A stretch of DNA of 64,000 nucleotides. Source: a virus. Shown here piece after piece: positions 2,989 to 40,326 of this stretch (position 1 is its first letter; each line of letters starts with the position of its first letter). The notes under the pieces were generated by a model. It saw nothing but the letters and a program-made list of their open reading frames with translations, made no database searches and was not told the origin of the DNA. Both the position numbers and the translations under genes were made by a program. The stretch lies in IMG/VR virus record IMGVR_UViG_3300018429_000060, positions 1 through 64,000 of that record. One strand, given 5' to 3'.

Positions 2989-3001
2989 ACGGGAACCCCC
3001 T

Positions 3002-10246: not shown

Positions 10247-10360
10247 CCGGCGAAGGCGTCCCTGCGGCTTGACAGCCCTCGCGGAGATGCTGCCCAGCAT
10301 CGACTGGCGATCACCGTGGCCGGATGCACACACCCTCGCGTTGTGTGCCCGGAGGCCACG

Positions 10361-12816: not shown

Positions 12817-14241
12817 ATGGCCAACGCGTGGGGCGGCGGCGACCCGGTCGAGTCCACCGACCTCGACCCGTACGAGCTCAGCTGCGACTTCGTCGTGCAC
12901 CAGCCGCTGTCCATCACCCACATCCGGGTGTGGACCAGCGACGGTGAGGAGCCGTCGGTCAACCGCCGCGCCCGCGTCTGGTCGCCCGCCGGCGCCCAGC
13001 TGGGCATCGCCACGCTGCCGGACGACCTCCCCTCCGGCTGGACCGTCCACGCCCTGGACGCCCCGGTGGCCCGTGCCGCCGGGCAGGGGTTCGTCGCCAG
13101 CTTCAGCACCGGCGGCCGCTACGGCGCACTGCCCAACGCCCTGACCGCCCCGGTGGATTCCGCCGACGGCGCCGTCACCGCCCGCGCGGCCGCGACCGCA
13201 CCCAACGGCAACGGCAGCTTCGGCGCCCCAGGGGTGTTCCCCACCACGCCGTCGACGACGAACGCGTTCTACGGCATCGACGTCGTCTACGTCCTGGCCT
13301 CGGTCACCCCGGTGGTCATCCCCCGGCTCAACGTCGACCCGCCGGCCGCGGCGACACCGCACCGGTTCGGCCTGTTCACCGCGGCGACCGTGCTGGAGAA
13401 CGTGTCGCCGCACGCGCTCACCGGCATCGAGTACGAGGCGGTGTGCTCGACCCGCGTCGACGGCTACCCGGCGCCGTGCCGCCCCGGTGACGTCCTGAGC
13501 CGCACCAAGACACCGCAGCGGACCACCAGCATCGTCAACGCCACCCCGTTCGCCCTCTACGCCGCCGACTCCTGCGTGCTGGGCCGCGATCAGGCCCTCG
13601 CTCAGCGGCAGCTGCGGCAGCGGCTGGCCAACGGTGAGGAAACCGCCGTCGAGCGGATCGTGTTCAGCGGCGAGCTGGACCAGCTGCCGAACCTGCGCCG
13701 GCAGGCGCAGATCCTGCCCGGAGCGGCCCGCGGCCTCGACGAGGCCGTCGGCGAGCTGGAGCAGTGGCTGGCCACCACCTACGGCGGCGTCGGAGTGATC
13801 CACGCCCCGATGGCCGTGGCGAACCAGGCCCAACACCACGCCCTGCTCAGCGTCGCCGGGCCGCGCGCCCTGACGGTTCTCGGATCGGCGTGGGCGTTCG
13901 GCGCCGGCTACCTCGGCACCCCACCCGAGGACGCCCCCGGCCCGGACACCGGCGCGCTGTGGCTGTACGCGACACCGCCGCTGACCCTGCGCCGCTCGGC
14001 GGTCATCGAGCCGGCCGACTGGTCCAGCGGCGGGTTCGAGGCGGCCACCAACACCGGGTTCCTGCTGGCCGAACGCATGTACGTCGTGGACTGGCCCTGC
14101 GGTGTGGCCGCGGTGCAGACCACCCTCACCCGCCCCGGCTGGGTCACCCCCGGCGGCGCCGCCGTGGAGCTGAGTACCGATCCCCCGCCCGTCGACGGCG
14201 ACCCCGCCGTCGACGGTGACACCCGAGGAGGCCCCGGATGA
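12817..14241 (+). CDS. virion-associated protein with N-terminal DUF4082-like sandwich
   Basis: 474 aa. The first ~160 residues look like a DUF4082 beta-sandwich ('QPLSITHIRVWTSDGEE', 'RRARVWSPAGAQLG', 'ATLPDDLPSGWTVHAL', then 'FYGIDVVYV'). The C-terminal ~300 residues form a second domain with conserved hydrophobics ('GAGYLGTPPEDAPGPDTGALWLYATPPL') that I cannot name. Position right after the capsid and ATGA coupling to the next structural gene suggest a head decoration or head-completion role. DUF4082 modules are carbohydrate-binding-like in other contexts. Confidence 0.5.
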   Translation: MANAWGGGDPVESTDLDPYELSCDFVVHQPLSITHIRVWTSDGEEPSVNRRARVWSPAGAQLGIATLPDDLPSGWTVHALDAPVARAAGQGFVASFSTGGRYGALPNALTAPVDSADGAVTARAAATAPNGNGSFGAPGVFPTTPSTTNAFYGIDVVYVLASVTPVVIPRLNVDPPAAATPHRFGLFTAATVLENVSPHALTGIEYEAVCSTRVDGYPAPCRPGDVLSRTKTPQRTTSIVNATPFALYAADSCVLGRDQALAQRQLRQRLANGEETAVERIVFSGELDQLPNLRRQAQILPGAARGLDEAVGELEQWLATTYGGVGVIHAPMAVANQAQHHALLSVAGPRALTVLGSAWAFGAGYLGTPPEDAPGPDTGALWLYATPPLTLRRSAVIEPADWSSGGFEAATNTGFLLAERMYVVDWPCGVAAVQTTLTRPGWVTPGGAAVELSTDPPPVDGDPAVDGDTRGGPG

Positions 14242-15287
14242 CCGCACCAGCCCCGCCGGCCGCGTTGTGCGCCTCGTTCATCGGCGCCCGCGTGCTGCGC
14301 GTGACCCTCGTCGACGCCTGCGGCCGCCCCATCTGGGGACCGCGGTCGCAGGTGACCACCGAGGGATTCGTGTCCATCGAGATCGCCCCGGAGGTCGAGG
14401 AGGGCGACGCGATGAAGGTCAAGACCGCCGGTGGGGTGCTGTGCGTCAACGAACGCGGCGCCGACCAGGTGTCCTGGTACAACCTGACGATCGACTTCTG
14501 CCAGGTCGACCCGGACCTGTTCCTGATGATGCAGCGGACCTGGAAGCGGGTCACCGACGCCTCCCGGCAGACCACCACCGGGTGGCGGCAGGGCGAGAAG
14601 ATGTCCGACTCCCTCGGGTACGCGCTGGAGGTGTGGCCCAAGGCGTCCGGCAAGGGCGCCGGGCAGGCGTGTCTGCTCGGCGGCGGCGTCTCGGACCCGA
14701 CGCTGGTCCCCGGCGGCTACTTCGCCCTGCCGTGGGTCCTCGGTCTCGCACCGGAAGCGTTGACGCTGGAGAACGCGCCGACGTCGTTCAAGCAGAAAGG
14801 CCGCACCAAGCCCGGCAGCCTGTGGGGCCGCGGCCCGTACAACGTCACCCGCGACCTGGACGGTGACCCGGCGCGGCTGCTGGACCCGATCGACCCCGGC
14901 TTCTCGGTGCCGATCTGGACCCCGCCGTACATGACCTCCGGCGACCCGGACCACCTGCACGCCGAGATCGTCACCCTGGCCCCGCCGGTGCCGACCTGCG
15001 GCGCAGCGCCGGTGTGGAACCCCGACGCCGTCGTCCCGCTGCTGGCGGTGGCGCCCGGCGCGAACACCCGCACGGCGCAGCTGACGGTGACCAACTTCGC
15101 CCTGATCGGCAGCTCCGGGACGGTCAACTGGGGCGACGGCTCGATGGAGCCGATGCCGGGGTCCTCGGCCGGGGTGCTGTCCCACGCCTACCTGCCGGCG
15201 CACGACGGCACCGCGCAGACCATCACGTTCTACGCCGGCAACGGCCACGCCCCGGTCACCATCGCGTTCACCCCCGTGGCTCCGTAG
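14238..15287 (+). CDS. structural protein with C-terminal PKD domain
   Basis: 349 aa. The start overlaps the previous stop (ATGA). The body (1-250) is unrecognised and beta-rich. The last ~90 residues form a PKD-like Ig fold with the diagnostic 'VNWGDGSMEPM' followed by 'HAYLPAHDG'. It is the first of at least four consecutive genes carrying PKD domains. In virions such domains decorate the surface and may bind host glycans weakly; that role is inferred. Confidence 0.6.
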   Translation: MTAPAPPAALCASFIGARVLRVTLVDACGRPIWGPRSQVTTEGFVSIEIAPEVEEGDAMKVKTAGGVLCVNERGADQVSWYNLTIDFCQVDPDLFLMMQRTWKRVTDASRQTTTGWRQGEKMSDSLGYALEVWPKASGKGAGQACLLGGGVSDPTLVPGGYFALPWVLGLAPEALTLENAPTSFKQKGRTKPGSLWGRGPYNVTRDLDGDPARLLDPIDPGFSVPIWTPPYMTSGDPDHLHAEIVTLAPPVPTCGAAPVWNPDAVVPLLAVAPGANTRTAQLTVTNFALIGSSGTVNWGDGSMEPMPGSSAGVLSHAYLPAHDGTAQTITFYAGNGHAPVTIAFTPVAP

Positions 15288-16300: not shown

Positions 16301-16307
16301 TGCGCGC

Positions 16308-19300
16308 ATGACGCTGCCGCTGGTCCAGGACCAGGTGTTGTGGCCGCTGCTCACGGCGCTGCGTACCTCGGCCGCGGGCCAGTTCGGCCTCGTCCACCGC
16401 CCGGTGTGCGCGTTCGACGTGTACTGGTCCGACCATCCGATCCCGGCCGACCAGTGCGACTGCACCTGCGAGGACGAGGTGCCGGGCGGTCAGGGCGCGG
16501 CGTGGGTGCGGCTGGTCACCGCCACCAGCATCCTGGCGGCCAACACCACCGCCCGGCCGGTGCGGCAGCCGTGCGCCGGCGCCGACCTGCTGCTGACGAT
16601 CGAGGTCGGCGTGCACCGCTGCGCCCCGCTGCTGGACGGGACGAAGCCGCCCCACCAGCTGGCCGTCGATACGTACTCCGCTGGCATGGTCCAGGACGTT
16701 CTCGCGGTGCACCGGGCGTTCCTGTGCGCGCCGGCGCTGCGGGACCTCGACTGGCAGTTGAGCAGCCTCGGCCCCTCGGGGCCGCAGGGTGGCTGCGCCG
16801 CGGTGATCGGCACCGCGCAGGTGATCGTGTCCAACTGCTGCCCGATCGTGCTGACCGTCGGCTGGGTACCGGACCCGGACGTGCTGCTCGGTGTCCACGT
16901 CACGGGCGGTGGCTACGGCCGCCACGGCGCCCTGCTCGACTGGGGCGACGGCACCCCACCCGTGCCGATCGGCCCCACGGTCGCGCCGCTGCAGCACACC
17001 TACGCCGTGCCCGGTACCTACCAGGTGATCGTGGTCGACCGGCAGGAACCCACCGCGCGCACCACGGTCGCGATCACGGTCAAGGACCACGAGCCGATCG
17101 CGCACGTGTTCCTCGACTCGGAGGACGACTGGGCGGTGCTGCTGTGGCTCGACGAGCCCGACGACGGCACCGTGTACCTGGTCGACTGGGGCGACGGGTC
17201 GTCGCTGCAGCCGATGGCCGGGCAGCAGCTGGACCGGGTGCCGCCCAAGCCGCGAGTACCGCACCCCTACACCAAGCTCGGCCGCTACCCGATCACCGTC
17301 ACCGACACCCGCAGCCGCCGCGTCACCCACACCGGCGCCGAGGTCGGCGACCTCGGTGTCCTGCCCTCCTTCGACACCCCGGCGCGGCCGCGGCTGGAAG
17401 TGCTGTGGATGGCCACCGGCGCCACCTACCGCGTCGACGGGTTCATCACCGAGACCGGAGTGGTGCCGGCGTCCGGGCGGATCGTCATCGACACCGACGA
17501 GGACCTGCCCCCCGGCCAGCACAGCGTGGTCATCCGCGAGGAGATCAACGGGATCGTGCGGCGCGCCACCCGACGCTCCTACCTGATCCCGTCGCCGTGG
17601 GACTGGCGCCTCGGGGTGTGGACCACCTGGGGGCCGACCCCTGGGCAGCCGGGGATGCAGACGGTCAACCTGACCCCGCGCACCGCCCGCACCCCGTGCG
17701 CCATCGACTGGGGCGACGGCTCCCCCATCGAGACCATCCCGGCCGCCGGCACCGCCTCGCACAACTACCGGGTGCCGATCACCGGCGCCGGGGTGCGGCT
17801 GACCGTCACCGAGACCGTCACCGACGAGATCACCGACCCGCGCACCACCAGCCGCACCCTGGGCAGCCCCCGCTACGTCGGCACGCCGATGCTCAACGCC
17901 CGCCAGACCCGCGCGGTCGACCTGGACGTGGCCGGTCTGGACCACGACATCGACGACGACCGGTACGTCGTCTACTGGGGCGACGGCACCAGCGACTCCT
18001 TCGGCGCGCAGGGCCGCTGGTACCCGGCCAACCACCGCTACGCCAACGACGGCGTCTACACGATCACCGTCGACAGCCCCGGCATGGCCGCCCCGGTGAT
18101 CCGCACCGCCACTGTCATCAGCTACCCGGCGCCGGTGGTCACCATCGTCGAGGCCCGCAACCAGCAGGGCGAGCACCTGGACCCGGACCGGCTGACCGCG
18201 CAAGTCGCGATCGACAACCGCGCCGTCGGCGGCGACTGCCGGGTCGAGTTCGGCGACGGCTCCCCCGCCCACATCAGCGGCGAGCAGGACACCGTCACCC
18301 ACGCCTACCCCCGAGCGGGCCGGTACTGGGTGGTCGTGACCGCGCTGGCCGACACGACCGCGAAAGGACGCGCCTCCGTGTCCGTGCCATTCGGCCAGGA
18401 ACGCACCTTGATCTTCACCGTGACCGGGCACGGCTACACCGCCAGGGTCACGATCACCGGCAGCACCCCCGGCAAGACCGTGCAGGTGGTGTGGACCAGC
18501 GGCACCTCACCGCAGCCGGTGCCGCCGTCCGGGTTCGTCGAGCACACCTACCCGCCGATCGACGACATCTACAACGTCACCGTCTCCTACGACGACGAGT
18601 CCGAGAGCGTCGACGTCGCGGTGATCATCCCCTTCCCCGACGACACCGACACCGCCGGCGACGGCTCCGGGGGCGTGGGGTCGGAGCTGGAGCTGCGGCC
18701 GGTCGGCGGGCTCACCGACCGGCAGGACCCCTACCTGTGGTGGAACGTCGGCGCGCACGACCGGCAGCTCAAGGCACGGTGGCTGTTCGGCACCCAGCAG
18801 GTGATCATCTACTGGGGCGACGGCGCCATGGAGGTCATCGGCGTCGGCCAGGCCGTCACCCACGACTACGACCACCTCGGCGGCTACCTGCTACGGCTGC
18901 GCGAGATCGGCCCCGGCGCCTGGATCACCGCCGCCCAGGTGATCATCCGCGGGCAGCGGCCGCCGGCGCAGCTCACCGCGCACCCCGACGACCCGCGGAC
19001 GCTGCGGCTGCAGTTCGGTGACCTCGACGCCTCCGAGCTGATGCCCCGCTGGCGCGTGTTCTGGGCCTGGCCCGACCAGCACCACGACGACGTGTGGGCC
19101 CCCGCCGGTGGCCACGTCGACCATCCCGTCCCGGCGGGCAAGTACCTGCTGCATGTGCTCGACCTCGGGTCCAAGTGGTTCACCGAGATCGACACCGAGG
19201 TGCCGCCGGTCGACCCGGCCGTCACCCTCACCGCCACCGGCCGCGAGGTGCAGCTGAGCGTCGACCCCACCTCGGCCGGCGCCGAGCTGCGCGTCGACTG

Positions 19301-19451
19301 GGGCGACGGCTCCCTGCCGGAGCCGATCACCGGCGACACCGCCAGCCACACCTACCCGCCCGCCGACACCACGACGTTCGTGGTGCAGGTGTGGCACGTC
19401 GACGAGTCCAGTTCCGCCAGCCACGCGATCACCCTTGGAGAGCAGCCGTGA
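16308..19451 (+). CDS. giant multi-PKD virion protein
   Basis: 1047 aa. At least seven PKD/Ig-like repeats are marked by W/F-G-D-G motifs near residues 210, 293, 467, 557, 647, 835 and 998, most followed 10-25 residues later by 'H.Y' and a beta strand. The first ~180 residues are distinct and Cys-containing. No membrane segment. It is translationally coupled to the next PKD gene. It is probably a repeated-domain decoration or fibre, since PKD domains mediate protein and polysaccharide contacts. The number of repeats in one gene is unusual for a phage. Confidence 0.7.
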   Translation: MTLPLVQDQVLWPLLTALRTSAAGQFGLVHRPVCAFDVYWSDHPIPADQCDCTCEDEVPGGQGAAWVRLVTATSILAANTTARPVRQPCAGADLLLTIEVGVHRCAPLLDGTKPPHQLAVDTYSAGMVQDVLAVHRAFLCAPALRDLDWQLSSLGPSGPQGGCAAVIGTAQVIVSNCCPIVLTVGWVPDPDVLLGVHVTGGGYGRHGALLDWGDGTPPVPIGPTVAPLQHTYAVPGTYQVIVVDRQEPTARTTVAITVKDHEPIAHVFLDSEDDWAVLLWLDEPDDGTVYLVDWGDGSSLQPMAGQQLDRVPPKPRVPHPYTKLGRYPITVTDTRSRRVTHTGAEVGDLGVLPSFDTPARPRLEVLWMATGATYRVDGFITETGVVPASGRIVIDTDEDLPPGQHSVVIREEINGIVRRATRRSYLIPSPWDWRLGVWTTWGPTPGQPGMQTVNLTPRTARTPCAIDWGDGSPIETIPAAGTASHNYRVPITGAGVRLTVTETVTDEITDPRTTSRTLGSPRYVGTPMLNARQTRAVDLDVAGLDHDIDDDRYVVYWGDGTSDSFGAQGRWYPANHRYANDGVYTITVDSPGMAAPVIRTATVISYPAPVVTIVEARNQQGEHLDPDRLTAQVAIDNRAVGGDCRVEFGDGSPAHISGEQDTVTHAYPRAGRYWVVVTALADTTAKGRASVSVPFGQERTLIFTVTGHGYTARVTITGSTPGKTVQVVWTSGTSPQPVPPSGFVEHTYPPIDDIYNVTVSYDDESESVDVAVIIPFPDDTDTAGDGSGGVGSELELRPVGGLTDRQDPYLWWNVGAHDRQLKARWLFGTQQVIIYWGDGAMEVIGVGQAVTHDYDHLGGYLLRLREIGPGAWITAAQVIIRGQRPPAQLTAHPDDPRTLRLQFGDLDASELMPRWRVFWAWPDQHHDDVWAPAGGHVDHPVPAGKYLLHVLDLGSKWFTEIDTEVPPVDPAVTLTATGREVQLSVDPTSAGAELRVDWGDGSLPEPITGDTASHTYPPADTTTFVVQVWHVDESSSASHAITLGEQP

Positions 19452-20305
19452 GCAGAACCGCCACCCGCCCCGCCACCGACACCGATGCCGAGCCCGTCGA
19501 CGGCGCCCCGGACCCGGCCATCCCGCCGGCCGAGGACGCGGCGGCGCTGCGCTGGGTGCCGAAGGCGATCGCCGAGCTCGGCGTCGTCGCCGTGCCGACC
19601 AACGTCGTCGGCGAGTTCACCATGGACTGGGGCGACAGCAAGCGGACCGACAGCTCGGCCGGGGCACCCCCGGTCAGCCACGCCTACGCCAGCGCCGGCG
19701 CGTACACGGTGACCCTGACGCAGGGCGACGCGATCGTCGCCAAGACGCAGGTGGTCATCCGCGCCGGCAAGGGCCCGGCGGTCACCGCGGCGCCGGCCGC
19801 CGACAACCCGAACATCATCGAGCTGACCTTCGCCGACGACCCGGCCGAGATCGCCTCCCAGTACGCGATCACCTGGAACGTCGGCGGTGTCGCCGAGGTC
19901 GTGTTCGCGCCGAAGGGGACGGTGCTGTCCCACGGCTACACCGCCGGCGACCACGTGATCGTGGTCCGCGACCTCTACACCCGCCGCGCCGTCCGCCTGG
20001 AGGTCACCGTGGTCGACGCCACCTTCGATCCCGACTTCTCGGCCACGCAGGGCGAGAACACCATGACGGCGCTGGTCACGCTCACTGCGGTGGCCACCGT
20101 CAAGGACGTGCTCGTCGACTGGGGCGACGGTCAGCAGAGCACCGTGGCGGCGGCCGAGGTGGGCGGCAAAGCGACCCACGCCTACGCGGCCAACGACACC
20201 TACATCATCCAGGTCGTCTACGCCGACGGCTCCACCGACGGCTCCGCGCGCACCGTGACGATCCCGTTCCCGGCCCGCGACGGCCGGGGCAGCAACCGGC
20301 CATGA
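19448..20305 (+). CDS. PKD-repeat virion protein
   Basis: 285 aa from a GTG at 19448 overlapping the previous stop. Two clear PKD motifs ('MDWGDSKRTD', with K replacing the usual fourth-position G, and 'VDWGDGQQST'), each followed by 'HAYA'. A third degenerate Ig-like unit lies between. Same architecture and likely partnership as the flanking genes. It overlaps the next start by ATGA. Confidence 0.65.
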   Translation: MSRTATRPATDTDAEPVDGAPDPAIPPAEDAAALRWVPKAIAELGVVAVPTNVVGEFTMDWGDSKRTDSSAGAPPVSHAYASAGAYTVTLTQGDAIVAKTQVVIRAGKGPAVTAAPAADNPNIIELTFADDPAEIASQYAITWNVGGVAEVVFAPKGTVLSHGYTAGDHVIVVRDLYTRRAVRLEVTVVDATFDPDFSATQGENTMTALVTLTAVATVKDVLVDWGDGQQSTVAAAEVGGKATHAYAANDTYIIQVVYADGSTDGSARTVTIPFPARDGRGSNRP

Positions 20306-22728
20306 CCAAACCGGTCAGCCGGCTGGAGTGGTTCCCGGATCCGGTCACCACGCTCGCGGTCCGCGCGGGCTGGTTCGGCGCGGGCTGGCACTACACGCTG
20401 TTCTGGGGTGACGGCAGCAGCCAGCGGGTGCTGCACACCCAGCCGCCGGTCCGCCACCGCTACCCGGCCGCCGACACCTACACCCTGACCGCGGTCAGCG
20501 AGATCACCCAGGTGCAGGTGTCCACCCGGATCACCGTGCGGCCGCAGCGGACACCGCAGGTGAGCGCCGACCACCTCGGCGGCGGCCGGGTGCGGCTGAC
20601 CATCGTGGGCGGCTGGCGCGGTGACGTGCTGCACCGCGTCGACTGGGGCGACGGCATCCCGGCGCAGGAGTACTCCGGCACCCAGCTCACCCCCGAACAC
20701 CAGTACCCGGCCGGGATCGAGAACCCCACGGTGCTGGTGCAGGACGTGCCGGCGCGGCGCGCGGTCACCCTGGTGGTGCCGATCGACCCGTCCGAGCCGC
20801 CGCCGACCGACGCCCGGTTCGGCTGGCACGTCACCCGCCTCTGGGACGACCGGCCGGGGTCGCCCGGCAACATCGAACGCGCCGACGGGGTCGTCCTCGG
20901 CGCCGGCGTGCCGGCCGGCGCCGTCGTCGGCCTGTCCTACATCGGCGGTAGTGACGTCTACGCCACCGCCGACCGGCACGGCCACGTCACCTTCCCCCAG
21001 ATCACCTGGATCGCCGGCTCCCGCCAGTTCATGCCGCCGTTTCGCAGCGCCCGGATCTGGTACCCCGACCGGCTGCACTGGCCCACGGTGCAGCTGCCCT
21101 GCCTGGTCCGCCGCGACGAGGTCCAGGACGTCGTCCCGGTCTACACCATCGACCCCGGCGGCGACCCCATGGTGCTCACGATCGGGGTGGCCAACCCCCA
21201 GGCCGGCACCTACCGGGTGCTGTGGGGCGACGGCACCGCGCAGCAGGACGTCGTCTGCGACGGCCGCGCGTTGCGGGCCAGCCACCGCTACCGCAGCGGC
21301 GCGCGGGTGATCATCACCGTCACCGACCCGGACGGCAACAGCGGCGAGCGGGTCGTCGCCGCCCCGGAGATCGGCGGCCCGTGGTGGGGGCCGGACGCGC
21401 TGGGCAAGCCCCGGCTCAAGGTCGGCGTCCGCGACCTCGCCGGCGGCGACTGGTTCACCCCGCTGTCGGTCGACTGGGGCTGGGACGGCCAGTCGGCCCG
21501 CTTCTGGGGCCACCCCACCGCCCCCGACGGCAAGCAGAACGCGCTCGAGGAGTGGTACCCGAACGACCTGCGCGGCCAGGACGTGACCGTGTGCGTGTCG
21601 GCGCCGCTGCGCCCGGCGCTGATCGTCACCCGCCGCATCCCGCCGGCCGGATCCCGAAACCACGTCCAGCCCGATCCGCCGGGCTCGACCGGAAAGTCGA
21701 TCAACAAAGGAGAATCCGTGTCACAGACCCATCCGCCCACCCTGGCCGCCGAGGGCTACGTCACCCCCGGCGGCAGCGCCGGCATCCAGCTGCAGCACCT
21801 GTGGACCTGGGTGCAGGACGTCCGGTTCAAGTCCGCGGCGTTCGTCGGCGGCCTCAGCTCGACCTACACCGCGACCCTCACCGACCACGACATCCTCGGC
21901 CGGGTCGCCCGCGCCGAGGTGCAGCTGGCCGAGGTCGACCCCGGCGAGTACGAGGTCGTCGCCGTGGCCAACGACGGCGCGTTCGAGATGAAGCACCGGC
22001 TGATCGTCGAGGCCGTCCACGCCGGCACGATCATCGCCACGCTCACCCCGCTCGACGACCAGGGCAAGGTCGACCTGCGCGTCGAGCCGATCAGCCGCAA
22101 CGCCGCGTGGGCCGACGCCAGCACCCCGGCCAACCAGGGCGACGGCGAGGACTGGTTCGGGCTGGTCTTCCAGCGGCCCTCCGACACCGCCCACGCCACC
22201 CTGATCATCGCGGGGGTGAAGCCCGGCACCTACCCGATCGCGGTGCGTCAGCGGTTCCACGGCGGCAAGACCATCGTCGTCAACGGCACGGTGACCGTGC
22301 CCGCGGACCCGACCAAGCCGGCCAAGGGCGAGCTGCCGCTGGTCTACACGCACCCCGTCGACACCAACAAGCTCGGCAACGGCTCCTCGGTCGAGCACGT
22401 CATCGACTTCGGCGACGAGCACGACCAGGCCAACGCCCGCTACGGCGTCGCCGTCGAGCTGGTCGTCACCGGCCCCAACGGGCAGAAGCCCGACCTGCCG
22501 GCGGATGTCCGGGCGGCGCTGCGCGACCTGCGGCCGCTGACCGTGGCCCGCGCCACCGACCACGTCACCCTCTACGGAGGGAACCCCGATGTGTTGCGGG
22601 GCAACAAGAACTTCAAGATCAAGTTGGTGGTGACCATCACCCCGGTGCCCACCCCGGCCGGCTACTCCGAGGACGACGACCCGACCGCCCCGGACCACGC
22701 CGCCGAGCTGGCCACGAGCACCGCATGA
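20302..22728 (+). CDS. PKD protein continuous with a second (tail-tube-like?) domain
   Basis: 808 aa. Residues 1-472 contain three PKD motifs ('LFWGDGSSQR', 'VDWGDGIPAQ', 'VLWGDGTAQQ'). Residues 473-808 are a different beta-rich domain ('GYVTPGGSAGIQLQHLW...'). No stop codon separates the two parts, yet a strong internal Shine-Dalgarno and GTG (21706-21720) precede the second part. The gene may give both a long form and a 336-residue short form. The position late in the virion cassette suggests a tail tube or tail decoration subunit with an N-terminal PKD extension. This is inference, as I do not recognise the second domain. Confidence 0.55.
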   Translation: MTKPVSRLEWFPDPVTTLAVRAGWFGAGWHYTLFWGDGSSQRVLHTQPPVRHRYPAADTYTLTAVSEITQVQVSTRITVRPQRTPQVSADHLGGGRVRLTIVGGWRGDVLHRVDWGDGIPAQEYSGTQLTPEHQYPAGIENPTVLVQDVPARRAVTLVVPIDPSEPPPTDARFGWHVTRLWDDRPGSPGNIERADGVVLGAGVPAGAVVGLSYIGGSDVYATADRHGHVTFPQITWIAGSRQFMPPFRSARIWYPDRLHWPTVQLPCLVRRDEVQDVVPVYTIDPGGDPMVLTIGVANPQAGTYRVLWGDGTAQQDVVCDGRALRASHRYRSGARVIITVTDPDGNSGERVVAAPEIGGPWWGPDALGKPRLKVGVRDLAGGDWFTPLSVDWGWDGQSARFWGHPTAPDGKQNALEEWYPNDLRGQDVTVCVSAPLRPALIVTRRIPPAGSRNHVQPDPPGSTGKSINKGESVSQTHPPTLAAEGYVTPGGSAGIQLQHLWTWVQDVRFKSAAFVGGLSSTYTATLTDHDILGRVARAEVQLAEVDPGEYEVVAVANDGAFEMKHRLIVEAVHAGTIIATLTPLDDQGKVDLRVEPISRNAAWADASTPANQGDGEDWFGLVFQRPSDTAHATLIIAGVKPGTYPIAVRQRFHGGKTIVVNGTVTVPADPTKPAKGELPLVYTHPVDTNKLGNGSSVEHVIDFGDEHDQANARYGVAVELVVTGPNGQKPDLPADVRAALRDLRPLTVARATDHVTLYGGNPDVLRGNKNFKIKLVVTITPVPTPAGYSEDDDPTAPDHAAELATSTA
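21706..21720 (+). promoter_or_regulatory. internal Shine-Dalgarno and GTG start inside the PKD gene
   Basis: AAAGGAG (21706-21712), 5-nt spacer, then GTG at 21718, in frame with the surrounding gene. It would produce residues 473-808 alone ('SQTHPPTLAAEGYVTPGG' after the initiator). The spacing is ideal, and the sequence just upstream ('GSTGKSINKGES') has linker composition. Confidence 0.6.
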
Positions 22729-23498
22729 GCACACCGTCCGCATCCGCGGCGCTGCGCCGCGCCACCGCCGGCCCCGGCCGCTACATCCTGGAGGTGGCGC
22801 TGGCCAACACCGGCCAGGTCGAGCTCACCACCTGGCAGGCCACCCTCACCCTCCCCGACGGCGCCGGCATGGTCGCCAAGGCCAACGCCGCCGTCGACAA
22901 CACCAGCGCACCGCACGCCTACACGGTCACCCCGACCGGCCTCGGCCCCCTCGCTCCGGGGCAGCGGCAGGTCGTCGCGGTCGAGGTGTACGGCACGGGC
23001 CGGGCGCCGGTGGCGGCCCAGTTCACTGCCCAGGCCGACAAGGTGAAGGTCAAGGCCGCGGTGGCGGTGATGGCGGTGCTCATCGACGGCCAGTCGTGCA
23101 AGGCCGACGAGTGCACCTGGCCCGGCTCCACCACCATCGACAAGGGTGTCTCCGGTATCGAGATCGAGATCGGCACCGGCAGCGGCGCCGGCGGCGGCCT
23201 CGGCCTCGGCGGCGGCGGCGGTGGCGGCGCCCAGACCAACTTCAAGGTCCTCATGGAGTGGACCAACGACGCCGGCGGCGGTGGTGGCGCCGGCGGCGGC
23301 GGCGGGGTGTCCATCGGCGGCGCGGAGGCCCCGGTGCAGCAGTGGGTCGACGCCGGCGAGCAGGCCCAGAAGCAGCACCAGGGCAACCAGGGCGGGCAGG
23401 ACGGGTCGCAGTACAACAAGGACCCGTTCGCCGAGCTCGGCGCGAAGATCGACCAGCTGGGCGACCGCGTGGTGGCGCTGGAATCGAAGGCCGCCTGA
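22725..23498 (+). CDS. virion protein with Gly-rich linker and C-terminal coiled coil
   Basis: 257 aa, ATGA overlap with the previous gene. Residues 1-120 form a beta-sandwich resembling 'conserved repeat' or Ig-like folds ('YILEVALANTGQVELTTWQATLTLPDG'). There are two glycine-rich stretches (about 145-170 and 182-198), and the final ~40 residues are a predicted coiled coil ('FAELGAKIDQLGDRVVALESKAA'). This adhesin-like or fibre-like architecture, flexible linker plus oligomerising tail, fits a tail or decoration fibre. Confidence 0.5.
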   Translation: MSTPSASAALRRATAGPGRYILEVALANTGQVELTTWQATLTLPDGAGMVAKANAAVDNTSAPHAYTVTPTGLGPLAPGQRQVVAVEVYGTGRAPVAAQFTAQADKVKVKAAVAVMAVLIDGQSCKADECTWPGSTTIDKGVSGIEIEIGTGSGAGGGLGLGGGGGGGAQTNFKVLMEWTNDAGGGGGAGGGGGVSIGGAEAPVQQWVDAGEQAQKQHQGNQGGQDGSQYNKDPFAELGAKIDQLGDRVVALESKAA

Positions 23499-24046
23499 TG
23501 GGGCCGCAGAGGACCACCGCGTTCGCCGACTGGGTCACCGACCCCACCGCCGCCCCGGCGGCCGCGGCCGCGCCGACCCCCGGCGGCGGGATGGGCGGCG
23601 GCCAGACCGGCAGCACGCCACCCTGGCAGGACTGGGCCGGCGGCGGCATCGGCGGCGACTCCGGGTCACCACTGCCGGTCGTGGTGCGCTGCCCGATCTC
23701 CTACGACGCCGCGGCCGCGCAGGTCACCCTCCCGTCGGCGCAGAAGCCCGGCTACAGCGTCACGGCGTTCGTGGGCATCGACGGTGGCTTCACCGGCGCC
23801 GACCTGCCCACCGCGGTCAACGCCCGACTGCTCGACGACACCACCGTGCTCGTCAAGCTCACCGGCGCCGGCGCCACCTCCCACGGGCCCGAATACACCC
23901 CGGCGCCCACACCGGGGCAGAAGCGCACGGCGGTGCCGGTGCCGCCCGGCAAGCCCTACGTCGCCGTGGTGGTGTTCCCGGCGGCCGGCGGCATGGGCGG
24001 CGGCCAGCCCATCACCAAGCCGGGCATGGAAGGCGGTCAGCCGTGA
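23498..24046 (+). CDS. small Gly/Pro-rich virion protein
   Basis: 182 aa; the ATG at 23498 shares an A with the previous stop (TGATG). Gly-Met-Gly-Gly-Gly repeats occur at both ends ('GGGMGGGQTG', 'GGMGGGQP') around a ~110-residue Ig-like beta domain ('VVVRCPISYDAAAAQVTLPS'). No known family. Composition matches the Gly-rich neighbour. Likely virion-associated. Confidence 0.45.
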   Translation: MGPQRTTAFADWVTDPTAAPAAAAAPTPGGGMGGGQTGSTPPWQDWAGGGIGGDSGSPLPVVVRCPISYDAAAAQVTLPSAQKPGYSVTAFVGIDGGFTGADLPTAVNARLLDDTTVLVKLTGAGATSHGPEYTPAPTPGQKRTAVPVPPGKPYVAVVVFPAAGGMGGGQPITKPGMEGGQP

Positions 24047-25356
24047 CCGACCCCGACACCGACCAGCACCGGGGCGGCTGTAGCCGCGGCTACACCGTGG
24101 TCACCGCCGCGGTGGACGACCTGCACGCCACGGTCCGGCGGATCGAGGACCTGCTGCGGCAGGGCCCGCCGACCCGGCGGACACTGCGGCCACCCGTGGA
24201 CGGCATCTACGCCCACAACAAGGGCGGCGGCTGGTGGTTCCTCACCTGGCACCAGGTGCCCGGCGCCACCGGCTACGAGCAGGACCATCCCGACACCGGC
24301 GTCGGCCCGACCCACGGCCCGTCGACCACCATCTTCGCCGTCGCCAGCGGCGACCAGCGGGTGATCCGCGTGCGGACGGTCAGCGACGGCCACAACTCCC
24401 CGTGGGTGAAGTACACCCTGTGGTGGGACGGCCGGCTGACCTACGAGATCGAGGGTGGAGATCCGCCGCCGCCGGCCGACCCGGCCGTGCCGGTGCTCGA
24501 CCGGGTGACCGCCGGGCACACCTCGATCGCCGCCTGGTGGACCTCGTTCGACGTCACGCAGTGGGAGACCAGGCTGGTCGACGCCGACGGCGAGCAGCTG
24601 CAGGGGCACAACGTCACCCAGACCAACGCGGTGTTCAACGAGCTGCGGCCGTCCACCACCTACGGCCTGGCGGTCCGCGCGGTCGACGTCGACACCGGCC
24701 GCCGATCCGACTGGACCGACACCAGGTGGAAGACCACCCTCGCGGAAGGGGAGGTGCCGCGCCCCGACCGGCCGACCGGGTTGTTCGCTCACTGCATCGC
24801 CGACACCACGGCGAAGGTCGAGTGGGACCAGCACACCCAGGTGGACGCGTGGGAGGTGTGGATCGGCGACGACCGCGACGCCGGCGCGATCGCGACGTCC
24901 ACCCCGCTGGTGAAGCTGCTCGGCCTGCAGCCCGACACCGAGTACACGGTCCACGTGGTCGCCGTCGTCGGCGGCGAACCCGGCGACGCCGACTACGCCG
25001 AGTCGGAACCGGCCAGTCACACGTTCCGCACGCGGGCGACGATGCTGCCGCCCGACGAGGACCCACCGGGTGACATCGGCGCCGATCTGCCGGCACCGCA
25101 GGAGCTGATGGTGCGGGCGTCGTCGTCGACGACGGTGGAGGCGGTATGGCGCGACGCCCGCCCCGACACCGGGCAGGGCAACTTCTACGTGGCCACCTGC
25201 AACGGGCGTGACCTGGTGCGGGTCGACGGCAGCGGCATCACCTTCACCGACCTGCCACCGGACGAGCCGGTGACGGTGTCGGTGTACGGGGTGATGGGGA
25301 AGAAGCTGACCGGCGTCGCCACCAAGGGCACGACCATGAAGGGAGCCGGCTGGTGA
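24043..25356 (+). CDS. fibronectin type III virion protein
   Basis: 437 aa from a GTG at 24043 (GTGA overlap). After a short helix there are about four beta-sandwich repeats. Two are good FN3 domains, around residues 145-235 ('VLDRVTAGHTSIAAWWTS...LRPSTTYGLAVRAVD') and 240-330 ('PTGLFAHCIADTTAKVEWDQ...LQPDTEYTVHVVAV'), with the conserved W and 'LxPxTxY'. FN3 domains are common on phage tails, where they may aid weak surface binding. It is coupled to the LPMO gene that follows. Confidence 0.7.
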   Translation: MTDPDTDQHRGGCSRGYTVVTAAVDDLHATVRRIEDLLRQGPPTRRTLRPPVDGIYAHNKGGGWWFLTWHQVPGATGYEQDHPDTGVGPTHGPSTTIFAVASGDQRVIRVRTVSDGHNSPWVKYTLWWDGRLTYEIEGGDPPPPADPAVPVLDRVTAGHTSIAAWWTSFDVTQWETRLVDADGEQLQGHNVTQTNAVFNELRPSTTYGLAVRAVDVDTGRRSDWTDTRWKTTLAEGEVPRPDRPTGLFAHCIADTTAKVEWDQHTQVDAWEVWIGDDRDAGAIATSTPLVKLLGLQPDTEYTVHVVAVVGGEPGDADYAESEPASHTFRTRATMLPPDEDPPGDIGADLPAPQELMVRASSSTTVEAVWRDARPDTGQGNFYVATCNGRDLVRVDGSGITFTDLPPDEPVTVSVYGVMGKKLTGVATKGTTMKGAGW

Positions 25357-25973
25357 CCACGACCGAGAAGCCCCGCGTCGAGCGGATCATCATGCCGGGC
25401 TGGATCCGGCACGGCTACGGCACCAACCCGAACTCGCGGGCCTACTGGTGCGCGGAGAACCACGCCGGCTGCGGCCCCATCGAGTCCGAGCCGCAGAGCG
25501 TGGAAGCCCCCAAGGGGTTCCCCCGGTCGGGACCACCGGACGGGCAGCTCGCCTCCGGTGGCCACGTCCGGTTCGGCAGCCTGGACAAGGTCACCGCCCC
25601 GGACGGATCACCCTGGCCGGCGACCACCCTCACCGTCGGCGCACGAGTGCGGATGCGGTGGTGGCTCACCGCGGTGCACAAGACCGAGTCGTGGGAGTAC
25701 TGGATCACCCGCGACGGGTGGGACCGCACCCAACCGCTGACACGGGCCCAGCTGGAACCGGCGCCGTTCAGCCGCATCACCTGGCCGTGCCCCGACGGCG
25801 GCTGGACCTGCCGACTGCCGGCCGAGGACGTGCACCACTGGATCTGGCTGCCTCCGGGCAAGGAAGGCGAGCACGTCATCTACGGCATCTGGAACGTCGG
25901 CGACACCGGCAACGCCTTCTACACCACCATGGACGTCCGCATCGTCCACCCCGCGGCGGCTCCCGCCCGGTAA
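25353..25973 (+). CDS. AA10-family lytic polysaccharide monooxygenase (chitin-binding type 4)
   Basis: 206 aa. From His20 the protein aligns along its whole length with bacterial chitin-active LPMOs such as CBP21: 'HGYGTNPNSRAYWC', 'EPQSVEAPKGFP..GPPDGQLAS', 'WWLTAVHKTESWEYWIT', 'WDRTQPLTRAQLE' and 'NAFYTTMDV'. The copper histidine-brace residues His20 and His109 and the axial Phe189 are all present. AA10 enzymes oxidatively cleave chitin or cellulose. The odd point is the N-terminus: 19 residues ('MTTTEKPRVERIIMPGWIR') with no signal peptide precede His20, which must be N-terminal to bind copper. Either a protease exposes it or it works only as a chitin-binding domain. Its place between FN3 protein and endolysin suggests a virion part. 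Confidence 0.85.
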   Translation: MTTTEKPRVERIIMPGWIRHGYGTNPNSRAYWCAENHAGCGPIESEPQSVEAPKGFPRSGPPDGQLASGGHVRFGSLDKVTAPDGSPWPATTLTVGARVRMRWWLTAVHKTESWEYWITRDGWDRTQPLTRAQLEPAPFSRITWPCPDGGWTCRLPAEDVHHWIWLPPGKEGEHVIYGIWNVGDTGNAFYTTMDVRIVHPAAAPAR

Positions 25974-26032: not shown

Positions 26033-27376
26033 ATGCGTACCGTGGATCCGCAGTCGGTCGCGTTCCGCGAGGCCACCCCGGCCGACCTCGAACCCGGCAC
26101 CTGGGAAGACCTGGTCCACCGCGGCCTGGTCCTGCCAGCCCCCACCGGCGAGCCGCTACGCCTGCCCGACGACTGGGAACCCGATCGGTGGGACGCCGCA
26201 CGCACCGTCGCCAAGACCCGCGAGCAGGCCGCGGCGGCCGCCGCGGCGCGCGGCGACGACCCCACCGCCTACGGCGCACTCGCCCAGCAGCTGGATCAGC
26301 TGGCCGCGGCCGCCGCCGGCGGACTGTGGGTGCCGTGGCTTGTCGACGCCGCGCGCCTCACCGGCTACCCGGTGTTCGTCGAGCCAGGGTGGAACGGCCG
26401 CGGCAACGGCGGCCTGCGGCTGCTCGAGGTCGTGGTCGGCCACCACACCGCCACCCCGGACAGCGTCGCCGGCGACTACCCCTCGCTGCGAGTGGTGCGC
26501 GACGGCCGGGCGGGCCTGCGCGGGCTGCTGTCCCAGCTCGGCATCGGCCGCTCCGGCGCGATCTACGTCCTGGGCAACGGTCTCGCCTACCACGCCGGCG
26601 TGTCCGCCTACGCCGGCTACTACGACCTCAACGACGAGGCCCTGGGCATCGAGGCCGAGGACTCCGGCGACGGCACCTGGACGGCGGCGCAGCTGGACTG
26701 CTACCCGCGCCTGGTGGCGTCGCTGCTGTTCTACATGCGCCGCGGCGCCGAGCGGTACTGCTCGCACCGCACCTGCGCCCTGCCCGCCGGGCGCAAACCC
26801 GACCCCGCCGGCATCGCCGACGCGTGGATGCACACCCGTGTGCGGCACCTGCTCGGCGACCCCACCCACCGCATCCCGAGAGGCAACAGCATGACCAGTG
26901 CCGAGCAGATCGCCGACGCCGTCTTGAACCGTACGTTCGTCCGGCACGGTCCCAACATCCCGCACGCCGGGCAGCCCACCAACCTCGGGGCGATCGTCGC
27001 GTGGCTGGACGCCATGGTGGTCAATGGGCCGTGGGCTTACCCCGGCGCGCAGCAGCTGCTCGTCGACGTTGCCGCCACCCGTGTCCTGGTGACCACCCTG
27101 GCCGGTCGCGACCCGCAGCTGCCGCTGGACGCCGAGCAACTGGCGGCGCTGCTCAACACCAACATCGACCAGGAAGCGGCCGCCCTCGGTGACCGGCTGA
27201 CCGCCCAGATGGTCGCAGCCCAGGCCGCGCTGGCCGCTCAACTGACCCAATACCTGGACTCGATCCAGGATCGGTTCCTGCAGATCGTGCAGGCCGACAA
27301 CCAGGACCAGGCCCGCGCGTTCTTCGACCAGCTTCGGGCGATGATCCCGCCGCCCGCGCACCAGCTCACCGCGTAA
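26033..27376 (+). CDS. endolysin, N-acetylmuramoyl-L-alanine amidase (Amidase_2/PGRP fold)
   Basis: 447 aa with GGGAGAG before the ATG. The catalytic domain spans about residues 120-285. 'EVVVGHHTAT' supplies the first zinc His, then 'YHAGVS', 'GIEAEDSGDGTW' and 'SHRTCALPAGRKPDP', which holds the second His and Lys-containing loop of type-2 amidases. It cleaves the bond between MurNAc and L-Ala in peptidoglycan for lysis. The C-terminal 160 residues are helical and probably bind the wall or oligomerise. An internal start at 26891 would express that part alone. No signal peptide, so a holin is expected, but none was recognised. Confidence 0.8.
   Translation: MRTVDPQSVAFREATPADLEPGTWEDLVHRGLVLPAPTGEPLRLPDDWEPDRWDAARTVAKTREQAAAAAAARGDDPTAYGALAQQLDQLAAAAAGGLWVPWLVDAARLTGYPVFVEPGWNGRGNGGLRLLEVVVGHHTATPDSVAGDYPSLRVVRDGRAGLRGLLSQLGIGRSGAIYVLGNGLAYHAGVSAYAGYYDLNDEALGIEAEDSGDGTWTAAQLDCYPRLVASLLFYMRRGAERYCSHRTCALPAGRKPDPAGIADAWMHTRVRHLLGDPTHRIPRGNSMTSAEQIADAVLNRTFVRHGPNIPHAGQPTNLGAIVAWLDAMVVNGPWAYPGAQQLLVDVAATRVLVTTLAGRDPQLPLDAEQLAALLNTNIDQEAAALGDRLTAQMVAAQAALAAQLTQYLDSIQDRFLQIVQADNQDQARAFFDQLRAMIPPPAHQLTA
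26878..26893 (+). promoter_or_regulatory. internal Shine-Dalgarno and ATG start inside the endolysin gene
   Basis: GAGAGG (26878-26883), 7-nt spacer, ATG at 26891, in frame at residue 287 ('MTSAEQIADAVLNRTF'), exactly at the junction between the amidase domain and the C-terminal region. Some endolysins are known to use a secondary start to make free C-terminal subunits that join the full-length enzyme. Confidence 0.5.
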
Positions 27377-32203: not shown

Positions 32204-32254
32204 CGGAGTCCGCTCCCCTTTCCTGCTCCAGCTCAAACCCCAGCACGCGCAATC

Positions 32255-32500
32255 CTGCATCAGCGCGTCAGCTCCAACGCGTCGACACGCGGAACCACGA
32301 CCACGCACACACGCCAACACCTGGACACGCAGTAGCGCGTCACCGCAGAAGCGCCTCAAGGCACCAGCGCGTCAGCAACAACACGCTGAACGGCCGACAC
32401 GCATCTACCCTGTCCCGCTACCGCACTGTCACGCGTGCACGCTTGAGCAGTGTAGCGGCTTACTTCTGACCCGCTGTCAGGCGTCAACACTGACGCGTAA
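32255..32500. repeat. iteron-like boxes upstream of parA (candidate centromere)
   Basis: AGCGCGTCA occurs at 32262, 32334 and 32366, with variants AGCGCCTCA (32350), AACGCGTCG (32276) and AGGCGTCA (32479) and the inverted TGACGCG at 32491. The trio 32334/32350/32366 has an exact 16-bp period. The region also carries many ACACGC motifs. Tandem boxes just upstream of a type Ib parA are the usual centromere and autoregulatory operator. No gene is seen in 32204-32900. Confidence 0.55.
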
Positions 32501-37125: not shown

Positions 37126-40100
37126 ATGGCAGTCGAAGGCGGCCCGATCGCGCAAGCCGCGGCCGAGCTCGTCATGGACGTCTCCTCGTTCGGGCCCGAC
37201 GTCAAGCGCAAGGTCACCGCCGCGGCGGCGGCCGCGGGCAAGGACTTCGACCGTGAGCTGATCAAGGCCACCCAGCGCACCGGCGGTGTGGTCGGCAACG
37301 GCATCTGGACCAAGGTCGAGGACGGCGCCGGCCGCGGCGGTGTCCGCGCCGGGCAGGAGTTCGACCGGGGGGTGCGGGCGGCGACCCGCCGCACCGGCAC
37401 CCAGCTGGGCCGGTCCGGCACCCAGGCCGGGTTCTCCTGGGGCAACGCGTTCAAGACAGCGCTGGCGCTGGTGCTCACCGGTGCGCTGCTGCGTGGGGTG
37501 TTCGCGCCGCTGGAGGCGGTCGGCAAGGGCCTCGGGCTGGCCACCGTCGGCGCCGGCGCCGCGGCCGCCGCGGCGGGGCTGCTGCAGATCGTCGCGGCCG
37601 CCGCGCCGGCCACCGGGGTGCTGCTGCTGATCCCGGCGCTGGCGGTGGCGGCCGGCGCCGGGCTGCTCACCCTGCGGGTGGCCCTGTCCGGGATGGGGGA
37701 GGCGTTCTCGGCTGCCCTGTCCGGTGACCCCCGCAAGTTCGCCGAGGCGATCGAGTCGCTGTCGCCGGCGGCGCGGTTGGTGGCGCAGGAGTTCCAGCGG
37801 CTGGTGCCGGAGCTGCACGACATCCGTGACGCGACCCAGGAGGCGTTCTTCGGGCCGTTGCAGGGGCGGCTGACGGCGATCGCCGCCACCCTGCTGGGTC
37901 CGGTCCGGTCCGGCATGGTCGGCGTCTCGGCGGCCAGCGCCCAGGTGGCGCTCGGCCTCGGTGACATCGCGGCCCAGGCGCCCACCACGGCGCTGGTCGC
38001 CGGCGGCTTCGACCTGGCCCGCCTGGCGGTGGCGGCGCTGCTGCCCGGTGTGCTGGCGATCGTGCTCGGGGTCCGTGACCTCGGGGTGGTGGCGCTGCCG
38101 CTGCTGTCGCAGATGTCGGCGGCCACCGGTGGTGTCGCCGTCCAGTTCGGGCAGTGGCTGTCCGCGATCGCCGCGTCCGGTCAGGCGGTCACCTGGATCC
38201 AGCAGGCGCTGGCCACGCTGGCCCAGTTCGGGCAGCTGCTGCTGCAGGTCGGCGGCATCATCGGGGCCGTCCTGGGCGCCGCCCAGACCTCCGGCGCCGG
38301 TGCCCTGGTGACGCTGACGGAGCTGCTGCACAGCGTCAACGCGTTCCTGTCCGGCACCGCCGGGCAGACCGCGCTGGTCAGCATCTTCACCTCGTTGAGC
38401 CAGGTCGGTGCCGCCCTGTCGCCGGTGCTGACCGCGCTGCTGGTGCAGCTCGGCCTGATCGCCCCGTTCGCCGCCCAGATCGCCGTCGCGCTCGGCCCCG
38501 GACTGGCCTCCGCGGTCGGCTCTCTCGGGCAGGCCCTGGTTGGTCTGGGGCCCGGTTTCGTGGCCATCGCGGCCGGGCTGAGCCAAGGGTTGATCGCCGC
38601 CGGCCCCGGCATCATCGCTCTCGCCGGGGCGCTCGGGATGCTGCTCGGGTCGGTGGGTCCGCTGCTGCCCCAGCTCGGGCTGCTGGTCGGGTTGGTCGCC
38701 GGCGTGCTCGGTCAGGCGCTGGTCAGCGTCACCCCCGCGCTGATCGCCGTCGCCGGGGTGGTGCTGCGGCTGCTCACCGCGGTGGCGCCGCTGATTCCCG
38801 TGCTGGGCCAGCTGGTCGCCGTGGTGGCGGTCGCGCTCGTGCAGGCCCTCGATGCGCTGCTCCCGGCGATCGAGCCGATCGTCGCCGGACTCGTCTCCGG
38901 GCTCGCCCCCGTCCTTCCCGAACTCGCCCGCGCCTTCGCCGGCCTGGTGGCCGCCGTGGCGCCGCTGCTACCGCCGCTCGGTGCGCTGATCGGGTTCGTG
39001 CTACGCCTGGCCGGCATCGCCCTGGCCTTCCAGTTCAAGGGCCTGGCCGACGCGTTCGAGCTGATCGCGGCCGTGATCGGCCCCGTCGTCGCCGGCATCT
39101 CCCGGTTCGTGTCCTACCTGGGGTCGCTGGACTTCGGGGCGATCGCCGCCGGCATCGGCGGTGCGTTCGCCGGCGCCGGCGCCGCGATCCTCGGCTTCTT
39201 CCGCGGCCTGCCCGGCCAGGTCGGGCGGGCGCTGCTCGGCCTCGGCCGCGCCACCGGCAGCGCCTTCACCAGCGCCGGTCAGGCCATCCAGGACTTCCTC
39301 ACCAGCCTGCCGGGGATGCTCCTGCGCGGGCTCGCCGGCCTGGGGCGGCTCTGGTTCACCCTGTTCACCAGCGCGCTGCAGCTGGGGCTGCAGGCCATCG
39401 GCATCGGCATCGCGTTGATCATCCAGGCGTTCATCGTGCTGCCGGGGCTGATCGGCCGCGGCCTGGTGGCGCTGCCCGGCGTCATCGCCGGCGCCTTCGC
39501 CGCCGCGTGGCGGCTCGCCGTCGACGCCACCACCGCGGCGGTCGCCGCGATCGTGGCGTGGCTGGCCGGGCTGGGCCGTGACGTCGGGTCGATCCTGTCC
39601 GCGCTGCCCGGCCAGGTCGGCGGGTTCTTCCGCGACGCGTTCGCCTCCGGCAAGGCGTGGGTGCTGGACGGGGTGACCGTCATCGTCGGCTACGTCTCGA
39701 CCCTGCCGGGGCGCATCGGCGGGTTCCTGTCCGGGCTGCCCGGCCAGATCGGCGCGATCTTCCGCAACGCGTTCGCCTCCGGCAAGCAGTGGGCGCTGGA
39801 CGGGGTCAACACCATCGTCGGCTACATCGCCGGCCTCCCCGGCCGCATCGGCGCCTTCGCCGGGCAGATGTTCGACGCCGGCGCCCGGCTGGGGAGCCGC
39901 CTGCTCGACGGGCTGCGTCAGCTCGGGTCGTTCGTGTCCGGGCTGGGGCGGGCGTTGCTGAACTACGTCATCGACGGCATCAACCGCGGCATCAGCTCGG
40001 CCTGGAAGCTGCCCGGTGCGCCGCCGCAGATCCCCCGCATGGCCAAGGGCGCCATCGTCGACAAGGCCACCCTCGCCCTGCTCGGTGAGGCCGGCCGCGA

Positions 40101-40326
40101 GGTGGTCATCCCGCTGACCAAGCCGGCGCGGGCGGTGCAGCTGGCCGCCGACTCGGGCCTGCTCGACCTGCTCATCCGCCAGGGCGCGCTGCGGCCCCGC
40201 GGCGGCGACGGCGCCGTGCAGCAGGTCGTGATCAACGCCCCGATCACGGTGCAGGCGCCGTACTCCGACCCCGAGCTGGTCGCCCTGGCCACCGTCGACC
40301 GGCTGCTGCGTGAGGCGGAACTGTGA
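37126..40326 (+). CDS. tape measure protein
   Basis: 1066 aa, the longest gene of the window. N-terminus 'AAAELVMDVSSFGPDVKRKVTAAAAAAGKDF' is typical of actinophage tape measures, followed by very long hydrophobic Ala/Gly/Leu/Val-rich helices (about 110-600) and Gly-Leu-Pro-Gly repeats ('FLSGLPGQIGAIFRNAFASGKQWALDGVNTIVGYIAGLPGRIG'). The end, 'MAKGAIVDKATLALLGEAGREVVIPL', is the conserved tape-measure C-terminal motif. By the usual ~1.5 A per residue ruler, the tail would be about 150 nm. It sits at the head of the second tail operon. Confidence 0.9.
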   Translation: MAVEGGPIAQAAAELVMDVSSFGPDVKRKVTAAAAAAGKDFDRELIKATQRTGGVVGNGIWTKVEDGAGRGGVRAGQEFDRGVRAATRRTGTQLGRSGTQAGFSWGNAFKTALALVLTGALLRGVFAPLEAVGKGLGLATVGAGAAAAAAGLLQIVAAAAPATGVLLLIPALAVAAGAGLLTLRVALSGMGEAFSAALSGDPRKFAEAIESLSPAARLVAQEFQRLVPELHDIRDATQEAFFGPLQGRLTAIAATLLGPVRSGMVGVSAASAQVALGLGDIAAQAPTTALVAGGFDLARLAVAALLPGVLAIVLGVRDLGVVALPLLSQMSAATGGVAVQFGQWLSAIAASGQAVTWIQQALATLAQFGQLLLQVGGIIGAVLGAAQTSGAGALVTLTELLHSVNAFLSGTAGQTALVSIFTSLSQVGAALSPVLTALLVQLGLIAPFAAQIAVALGPGLASAVGSLGQALVGLGPGFVAIAAGLSQGLIAAGPGIIALAGALGMLLGSVGPLLPQLGLLVGLVAGVLGQALVSVTPALIAVAGVVLRLLTAVAPLIPVLGQLVAVVAVALVQALDALLPAIEPIVAGLVSGLAPVLPELARAFAGLVAAVAPLLPPLGALIGFVLRLAGIALAFQFKGLADAFELIAAVIGPVVAGISRFVSYLGSLDFGAIAAGIGGAFAGAGAAILGFFRGLPGQVGRALLGLGRATGSAFTSAGQAIQDFLTSLPGMLLRGLAGLGRLWFTLFTSALQLGLQAIGIGIALIIQAFIVLPGLIGRGLVALPGVIAGAFAAAWRLAVDATTAAVAAIVAWLAGLGRDVGSILSALPGQVGGFFRDAFASGKAWVLDGVTVIVGYVSTLPGRIGGFLSGLPGQIGAIFRNAFASGKQWALDGVNTIVGYIAGLPGRIGAFAGQMFDAGARLGSRLLDGLRQLGSFVSGLGRALLNYVIDGINRGISSAWKLPGAPPQIPRMAKGAIVDKATLALLGEAGREVVIPLTKPARAVQLAADSGLLDLLIRQGALRPRGGDGAVQQVVINAPITVQAPYSDPELVALATVDRLLREAEL

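Follow-up and report, generated by a model that had tools for sequence, protein, structure and literature searches.

Established LPMO chemistry requires the first histidine to stand at the N-terminus of the protein. The known phage depolymerases and lysins are, to our knowledge, all hydrolases, lyases or transglycosylases. The AA10 protein LpmP (SCO2833 in Streptomyces coelicolor; SLI_3182/LPMO10E in S. lividans) is reported to bind peptidoglycan strongly and chitin weakly, to degrade peptidoglycan only with copper and, likewise only with copper, to raise the speed of lysozyme more than twofold (PMC9040799). AA10 has been listed among the viral auxiliary CAZymes of one virome (PMC9602057), and the LPMO described in a paper on deep-sea Pseudomonas lies in the bacterial genome, not in a phage (PMC11788074). 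No report of a virion LPMO was found in the literature searched, a body of work with subscription papers mostly outside its coverage. In the present study, we analysed an AA10 gene in the first 64 kb (64,000 nucleotides; 72.6% G+C) of a 91,306-bp IMG/VR virus record, a stretch referred to below as the window; the remaining 27 kb of the record were read as well.

The phage and its chain of overlapping tail genes

Matches to PHROGs placed a portal/MuF protein, a major head protein, a major tail protein, a tape measure protein and an endolysin on one contig (Table 1), as in a tailed actinophage, and together with the 91,306-bp virus record they upheld the phage origin assumed in the original prediction. 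By tblastn, the head protein had relatives in 838 records of isolate phages, of which nearly all infect actinobacteria, and, at 24–30% identity, in seven actinobacterial plasmids. The integrase, the ParA-like protein and these plasmid relatives suggest a phage-plasmid or temperate lifestyle. The ParA-like and integrase genes sit between the tail modules, and the tape measure gene lies approximately 20 kb from the major tail protein gene, across the decoration operon, endolysin, ParA and integrase (14238–45000), whereas in Gordonia phage Halo3 the two genes are within 4 kb. The protein encoded after the major head gene (12817–14241) has a DUF4082 domain (8.7e-17) at its N-terminus, and the part joined to this domain is conserved in phages (phrog_779). 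The equivalent position in Halo3 is annotated as a major capsid pentamer protein, and the capsid of the window phage may bear an extra (DUF4082) domain. Upstream of the head genes, a methyltransferase (1756–2988, minus strand) matches phrog_13505 (4.4e-70).

The AA10 gene is the last of a seven-gene chain (16308–25973) joined by overlaps of 1–4 nt, which encodes in order two PKD proteins, a PKD-like protein, two proteins without profile matches, an FN3 protein and the AA10 protein. The stop codon of the FN3 gene overlaps the AA10 start codon by 4 nt (GTGA), and the amidase endolysin gene starts 59 nt downstream of the AA10 gene.

In two related phages, the head protein was 56–57% identical by tblastn. 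The related phages share the portal, head, DUF4082 and tail protein genes as well as the beginning of the first PKD gene, after which they diverge. In the relative G012 (L116/L117, reverse complement), the major tail protein (15357–17393) has PKD repeats, recognised by WGDG motifs, and, as read from the sequence, an FN3 domain at its C-terminus; a nearby gene encodes an endolysin with 41% identity to that of the window phage. Domains that are part of the major tail protein in G012 are thus encoded by separate genes in the window phage. The tail protein of another relative, L009, showed a weak PKD match. We infer that PKD/FN3 domains are, in this lineage, components of the tail surface. Because the major tail protein of G012 incorporates PKD and FN3 domains, the PKD/FN3 neighbours of the AA10 gene are, by analogy, plausibly virion-surface proteins. 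This is the chief, though indirect, ground for regarding the AA10 protein itself as a probable virion protein, an association strengthened by the seven-gene overlap chain that it shares with the PKD/FN3 genes. The original prediction had proposed a search of related phage genomes for the same gene; AA10 was absent from the four records searched (L009, L010, L111 and L112), all of which are fragments, and given this absence the protein may be dispensable.

Table 1 Features of the window phage and its AA10 locus
Feature	Position	Strand	Evidence or remark
Portal/MuF	from 7460		PHROGs
Major head protein	10316..12736	+	phrog_777, 6.1e-90
Major tail protein	14238..15287	+	phrog_792, 2.8e-58
PKD-repeat protein, 1047 aa, first of overlapping chain	16308..19451	+	Pfam PKD 7.5e-19; phrog_810
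PKD protein, 4-nt overlap with preceding gene	19448..20305	+	Pfam PKD_4 5.5e-8
PKD-like protein, 808 aa, 4-nt overlap	20302..22728	+	sub-threshold PKD match; WGDG motifs
Protein of overlapping chain	22725..23498	+	no profile match; overlap
Protein of overlapping chain	23498..24046	+	no profile match; overlap
FN3-repeat protein	24043..25356	+	Pfam fn3 5.6e-15; weak PHROG tail-protein matches
Ribosome-binding site GGGAG, 7 nt upstream of GTG start	25341..25345	+	sequence
AA10/LPMO_10 protein, 206 aa, GTG start	25353..25973	+	Pfam, Foldseek
19-residue N-terminal extension MTTTEKPRVERIIMPGWIR, Arg just before His20	25353..25409	+	hydropathy; AF2 pLDDT ~50 (residues 1–20)
His20 codon (His1 of mature AA10s, first copper-brace ligand)	25410..25412	+	invariant in 80 bacterial homologues
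His109 codon (CBP21 His114, second copper-brace His)	25677..25679	+	alignment
Insert RITWPCPDGGWTCR, residues 141–154, with Cys146/Cys153 and Trp144/Trp151	25773..25814	+	alignment
Phe189 codon (CBP21 Phe187, axial position)	25917..25919	+	alignment
Endolysin, N-acetylmuramoyl-L-alanine amidase	26033..27376	+	Pfam Amidase_2 1.1e-11; phrog_880 endolysin 4.3e-27
ParA-like partition protein	31367-32359	-	
Integrase	32901-34058	+	
Tape measure protein	37126..40326	+	phrog_305, 1.1e-45

The AA10 protein and its internal histidine

Residues 20–195 of the phage protein matched the Pfam LPMO_10 profile over its full length (1–183 of 183) with a score of 140 bits (cut-off, 23 bits; E 1.9e-40), and the protein aligned with the mature AA10 structures 5ftz and CBP21 from their residue 1. 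This combination excludes chance, and by both sequence and fold the protein belongs to the AA10 family. None of the PHROGs families covers it. The GTG start, and with it the 19-residue extension, is well supported by the 4-nt overlap with the FN3 stop codon and by the GGGAG site. An alternative start at ATG 25392 (Met14) was rejected: its upstream site is weaker, and it would still lie six residues ahead of His20.

The AlphaFold2 model, built from 38 aligned sequences, had a mean pLDDT of 89.7, with low confidence for the first ~20 residues. Structure prediction had been suggested as a check, and the model indeed has the AA10 fold, its Foldseek comparison with 5ftz giving an E value of 9.5e-22, an rmsd of 1.2 and TM scores of 0.80 (query) and 0.95 (target). 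The same structure, which we take to be LPMO10E of S. lividans, was the best sequence match among solved structures (8.1e-40), followed by CBP21. As to orthology with LpmP, the top PDB match in both structure and sequence is therefore the S. lividans AA10; in the tree, the phage protein falls among actinobacterial AA10s with no firm place, on an end branch of 1.73 compared with a median of 0.08.

His20, His109 and Phe189 align with His28, His114 and Phe187 of CBP21, and the second-sphere residues E51, A107, D184 and N187 are also retained. Among 80 bacterial homologues, which are actinobacterial AA10 relatives from a motif scan of bacterial genomes, 45 alignment columns are invariant; the phage protein keeps 41 of these, including His20, His109, Phe189, Glu51, Asp184 and Asn187. 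That the copper site and so many invariant columns were kept despite the very long branch suggests selection on the site. The remaining four columns carry the changes C67A, F101M, V179I and C192T, and the joint change of C67 and C192 suggests the loss of one disulfide. At the chitin-face position of CBP21 Tyr54, where 81 of 83 homologues have Trp or Tyr, the phage protein has Ser45 and so lacks the surface aromatic of chitin-active AA10s. The insert at residues 141–154 is missing from the bacterial AA10 rows shown in the alignment, and the protein contains 13 Trp, one of them within the extension, compared with 3–7 in the homologues.

In all 80 of the closest bacterial homologues (42–51% identity), a signal peptide ends exactly at His1. 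The phage protein instead carries the 19-residue extension, which has no hydrophobic core, its maximum 10-aa Kyte-Doolittle value being 0.87 as against 1.5–3.0 in the homologues. No start codon puts His at position 1 or 2, and the codon ahead of His20 is CGG (Arg). Because His20 is internal in the primary translation product, the protein as encoded would have no catalytic copper brace, and it could be an active LPMO only after a cleavage. Since the extension is predicted to be disordered and Arg directly precedes His20, a trypsin-like cut would expose the histidine. The original prediction had described an end-to-end match with AA10s, both copper histidines and the axial Phe, a position between an FN3 protein and the endolysin, and 19 residues without a signal peptide ahead of His20, and each of these features was confirmed.

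AA10 genes in other phage and viral records

Phage-linked AA10 is not unprecedented. A pattern search of IMG/VR, which detects near motifs only, found five loci with AA10 (L004–L008). Both L004 and L005 carry leaders and were rejected as leaderless AA10s, and L008, a fragment, breaks off within the AA10 domain. The other two, L006 and L007, encode leaderless AA10s with a 7–11-residue non-signal extension in lambdoid (pro)phages. In L007 (L103 in G004; 879–3037, minus strand), the AA10 (MNKPEAKPQLK-HGR...) directly adjoins a GH18 chitinase that likewise lacks a leader and contains fn3 and CBM5_12 domains; the pair is positioned after tail tip and fibre genes of a Pseudomonas-type lambdoid prophage, whose tail tip protein is closest to those of Pseudomonas phages. 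In L006 (L102 in G003; 2735–3409, minus strand), the AA10 (MSNITPF-HGH...) follows the tail genes. These two proteins resemble that of the window phage in their short non-signal extension and their position after tail tip/fibre genes. However, they belong to a distant subfamily (34–38% identity) and to Gram-negative-type phages, and the AA10 of L007 differs further in standing beside a GH18 chitinase. The residue before the histidine is Lys in L007, Phe in L006 and Arg in the window phage, and trimming after an Arg or Lys before His is thus a lead drawn from three sequences.

Single-protein scans of viral and genome contigs found no near relative, and no annotated isolate phage carries an AA10 of this kind. 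Eight isolate-phage tblastn matches in INPHARED, six labelled Listeria and two Enterococcus (OR848133, OR846781, OR848159, OR846774, OR848810, OR846937, OR846591 and OR846602), were discounted as being probably of bacterial origin; of these, the five examined are UNVERIFIED wastewater contigs, and the AA10 genes of all five encode signal peptides. A BFVD match, A0A0K1Y848 (898 aa), has an AA10-like domain with 28% identity; it did not appear when the isolate phages were searched by tblastn at relaxed settings. Neither the IMG/VR near-motif search nor the isolate phages yielded a second leaderless AA10 inside an actinophage tail-decoration operon.

Possible roles and comparison with known systems

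We tentatively read the phage protein as one that, like LpmP, assists in penetrating or lysing the wall and would be active only once its extension has been trimmed. Such a wall-targeting accessory is the most likely explanation, and a non-catalytic adhesin is a close second. The LpmP-like role is favoured because the S. lividans AA10 is the best structure match, the chitin-face aromatic has been lost and the endolysin gene follows closely. The original prediction had named chitin in soil or the surface polysaccharides of the host as targets. Ser45 at the Tyr54 position weakens the chitin part of this claim. Given that the closest solved structure is a S. lividans AA10 and that LpmP is reported to prefer peptidoglycan to chitin (PMC9040799), host-wall peptidoglycan or hyphal glycan is, by analogy, at least as likely a target as environmental chitin.

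The proposed scenario is as follows. An actinophage would have captured an actinobacterial AA10 gene, shed the part encoding the signal peptide and placed the gene next to the endolysin gene, at the end of a tail-decoration operon with coupled translation. Its product would be made in the cytoplasm with the other late proteins and, like LpmP, may act on a host-wall polymer containing beta-1,4-linked GlcNAc, either peptidoglycan or a hyphal surface glycan. The protein would bind the wall, and removal of the 19-residue extension after Arg19 would make His20 N-terminal; the trimmed protein would then bind copper and nick the glycan, which would ease the passage of the particle or of the amidase. 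Presence in the virion, a wall substrate, trimming and copper chemistry are all what we infer for this protein.

It is also possible, with somewhat lower probability, that the protein is a non-catalytic AA10-fold tail module whose internal histidine blocks full copper chemistry and which acts, like its PKD/FN3 neighbours, as an adhesin to peptidoglycan, chitin or a surface glycan. The 19 residues ahead of His20 contain no recognisable processing signal, the operon partners are binding- or decoration-type domains, the many Trp residues and the Trp/Cys insert suggest a new binding face, and the two lambdoid (pro)phages also have AA10s with short non-signal extensions. However, the copper-site and second-sphere residues, needless for a pure binder, are all kept on a very long branch, and the classic chitin-binding aromatic is lost. 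On the sequence evidence, the survival of the copper residues argues for catalysis, and the missing N-terminal His argues against it.

An auxiliary enzyme released at lysis, independent of secretion and acting off the particle on environmental chitin (or fungal/insect cuticle) for the benefit of surviving lysogens, seems unlikely. The Pseudomonas-type prophage, with its leaderless AA10 paired with a leaderless GH18/CBM5_12 chitinase after tail genes, would suit such a role, as would the listing of AA10 as a viral auxiliary CAZyme in a virome (PMC9602057) and the integrase and ParA, which suggest a temperate or plasmid-like phage; in the window phage, however, no chitinase was seen beside the AA10 gene, the gene is translationally coupled to tail-type genes and the chitin-face aromatic is replaced by Ser. 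It is very improbable that the gene is a decaying or passenger copy without function, for although it is absent from the four related, fragmentary records and its end branch is long, the frame is intact, the ribosome site is strong, a 4-nt overlap couples the gene to the one before it, 41 of the 45 invariant columns are kept and the model is well folded. That host DNA or an assembly chimera was taken for phage is hardly credible and largely refuted, since, although such errors occur and the eight tblastn matches in the isolate collection look bacterial (five examined), the gene belongs to a phage operon of overlapping genes, is flanked on either side by phage genes and has no leader.

Returning to the wall-targeting accessory, its boldest form would be a tail-borne copper monooxygenase, proteolytically matured, that oxidatively cuts host peptidoglycan or surface glycan at entry and was recruited independently at least twice; this form is doubtful. 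If it is true, wall penetration would gain a new kind of chemistry, that of a copper-dependent oxidative enzyme placed on the tail or in the lysis cassette; the protein would illustrate in nature how an AA10 can mature without signal peptidase, and phage entry would be tied to the proposed role of LPMOs in actinobacterial wall remodelling.

Among known systems, entomopoxvirus fusolin and baculovirus GP37 are also virus-encoded proteins of LPMO-like fold (Foldseek E ~1e-8 to 1e-6), but these insect-virus proteins share only 10–19% identity with the phage protein and have no tie to a phage tail operon. CBP21, the chitin-active AA10 of Serratia marcescens, aligns end to end with the phage protein, which keeps the equivalents of His28, His114 and Phe187 as well as those of Glu60, Ala112, Asp182 and Asn185, but has Ser45 in place of the chitin-binding Tyr54 and lacks the secretion signal. 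With Streptomyces LpmP/LPMO10E (closest solved structure, 5FTZ from S. lividans), it shares the AA10 fold, the copper-brace residues, the axial Phe and the C33/C40 pair. Unlike the Streptomyces homologues, whose signal peptide ends at His1, it has a non-signal extension, and it further differs from them in lacking the second Cys pair (A67/T192), in the replacement of Trp by Ser on the binding face and in carrying the Trp/Cys insert. A wall-acting role alongside a hydrolase has been reported for LpmP/LPMO10E (PMC9040799), and the phage AA10 adjoining an amidase fits the same partnership.
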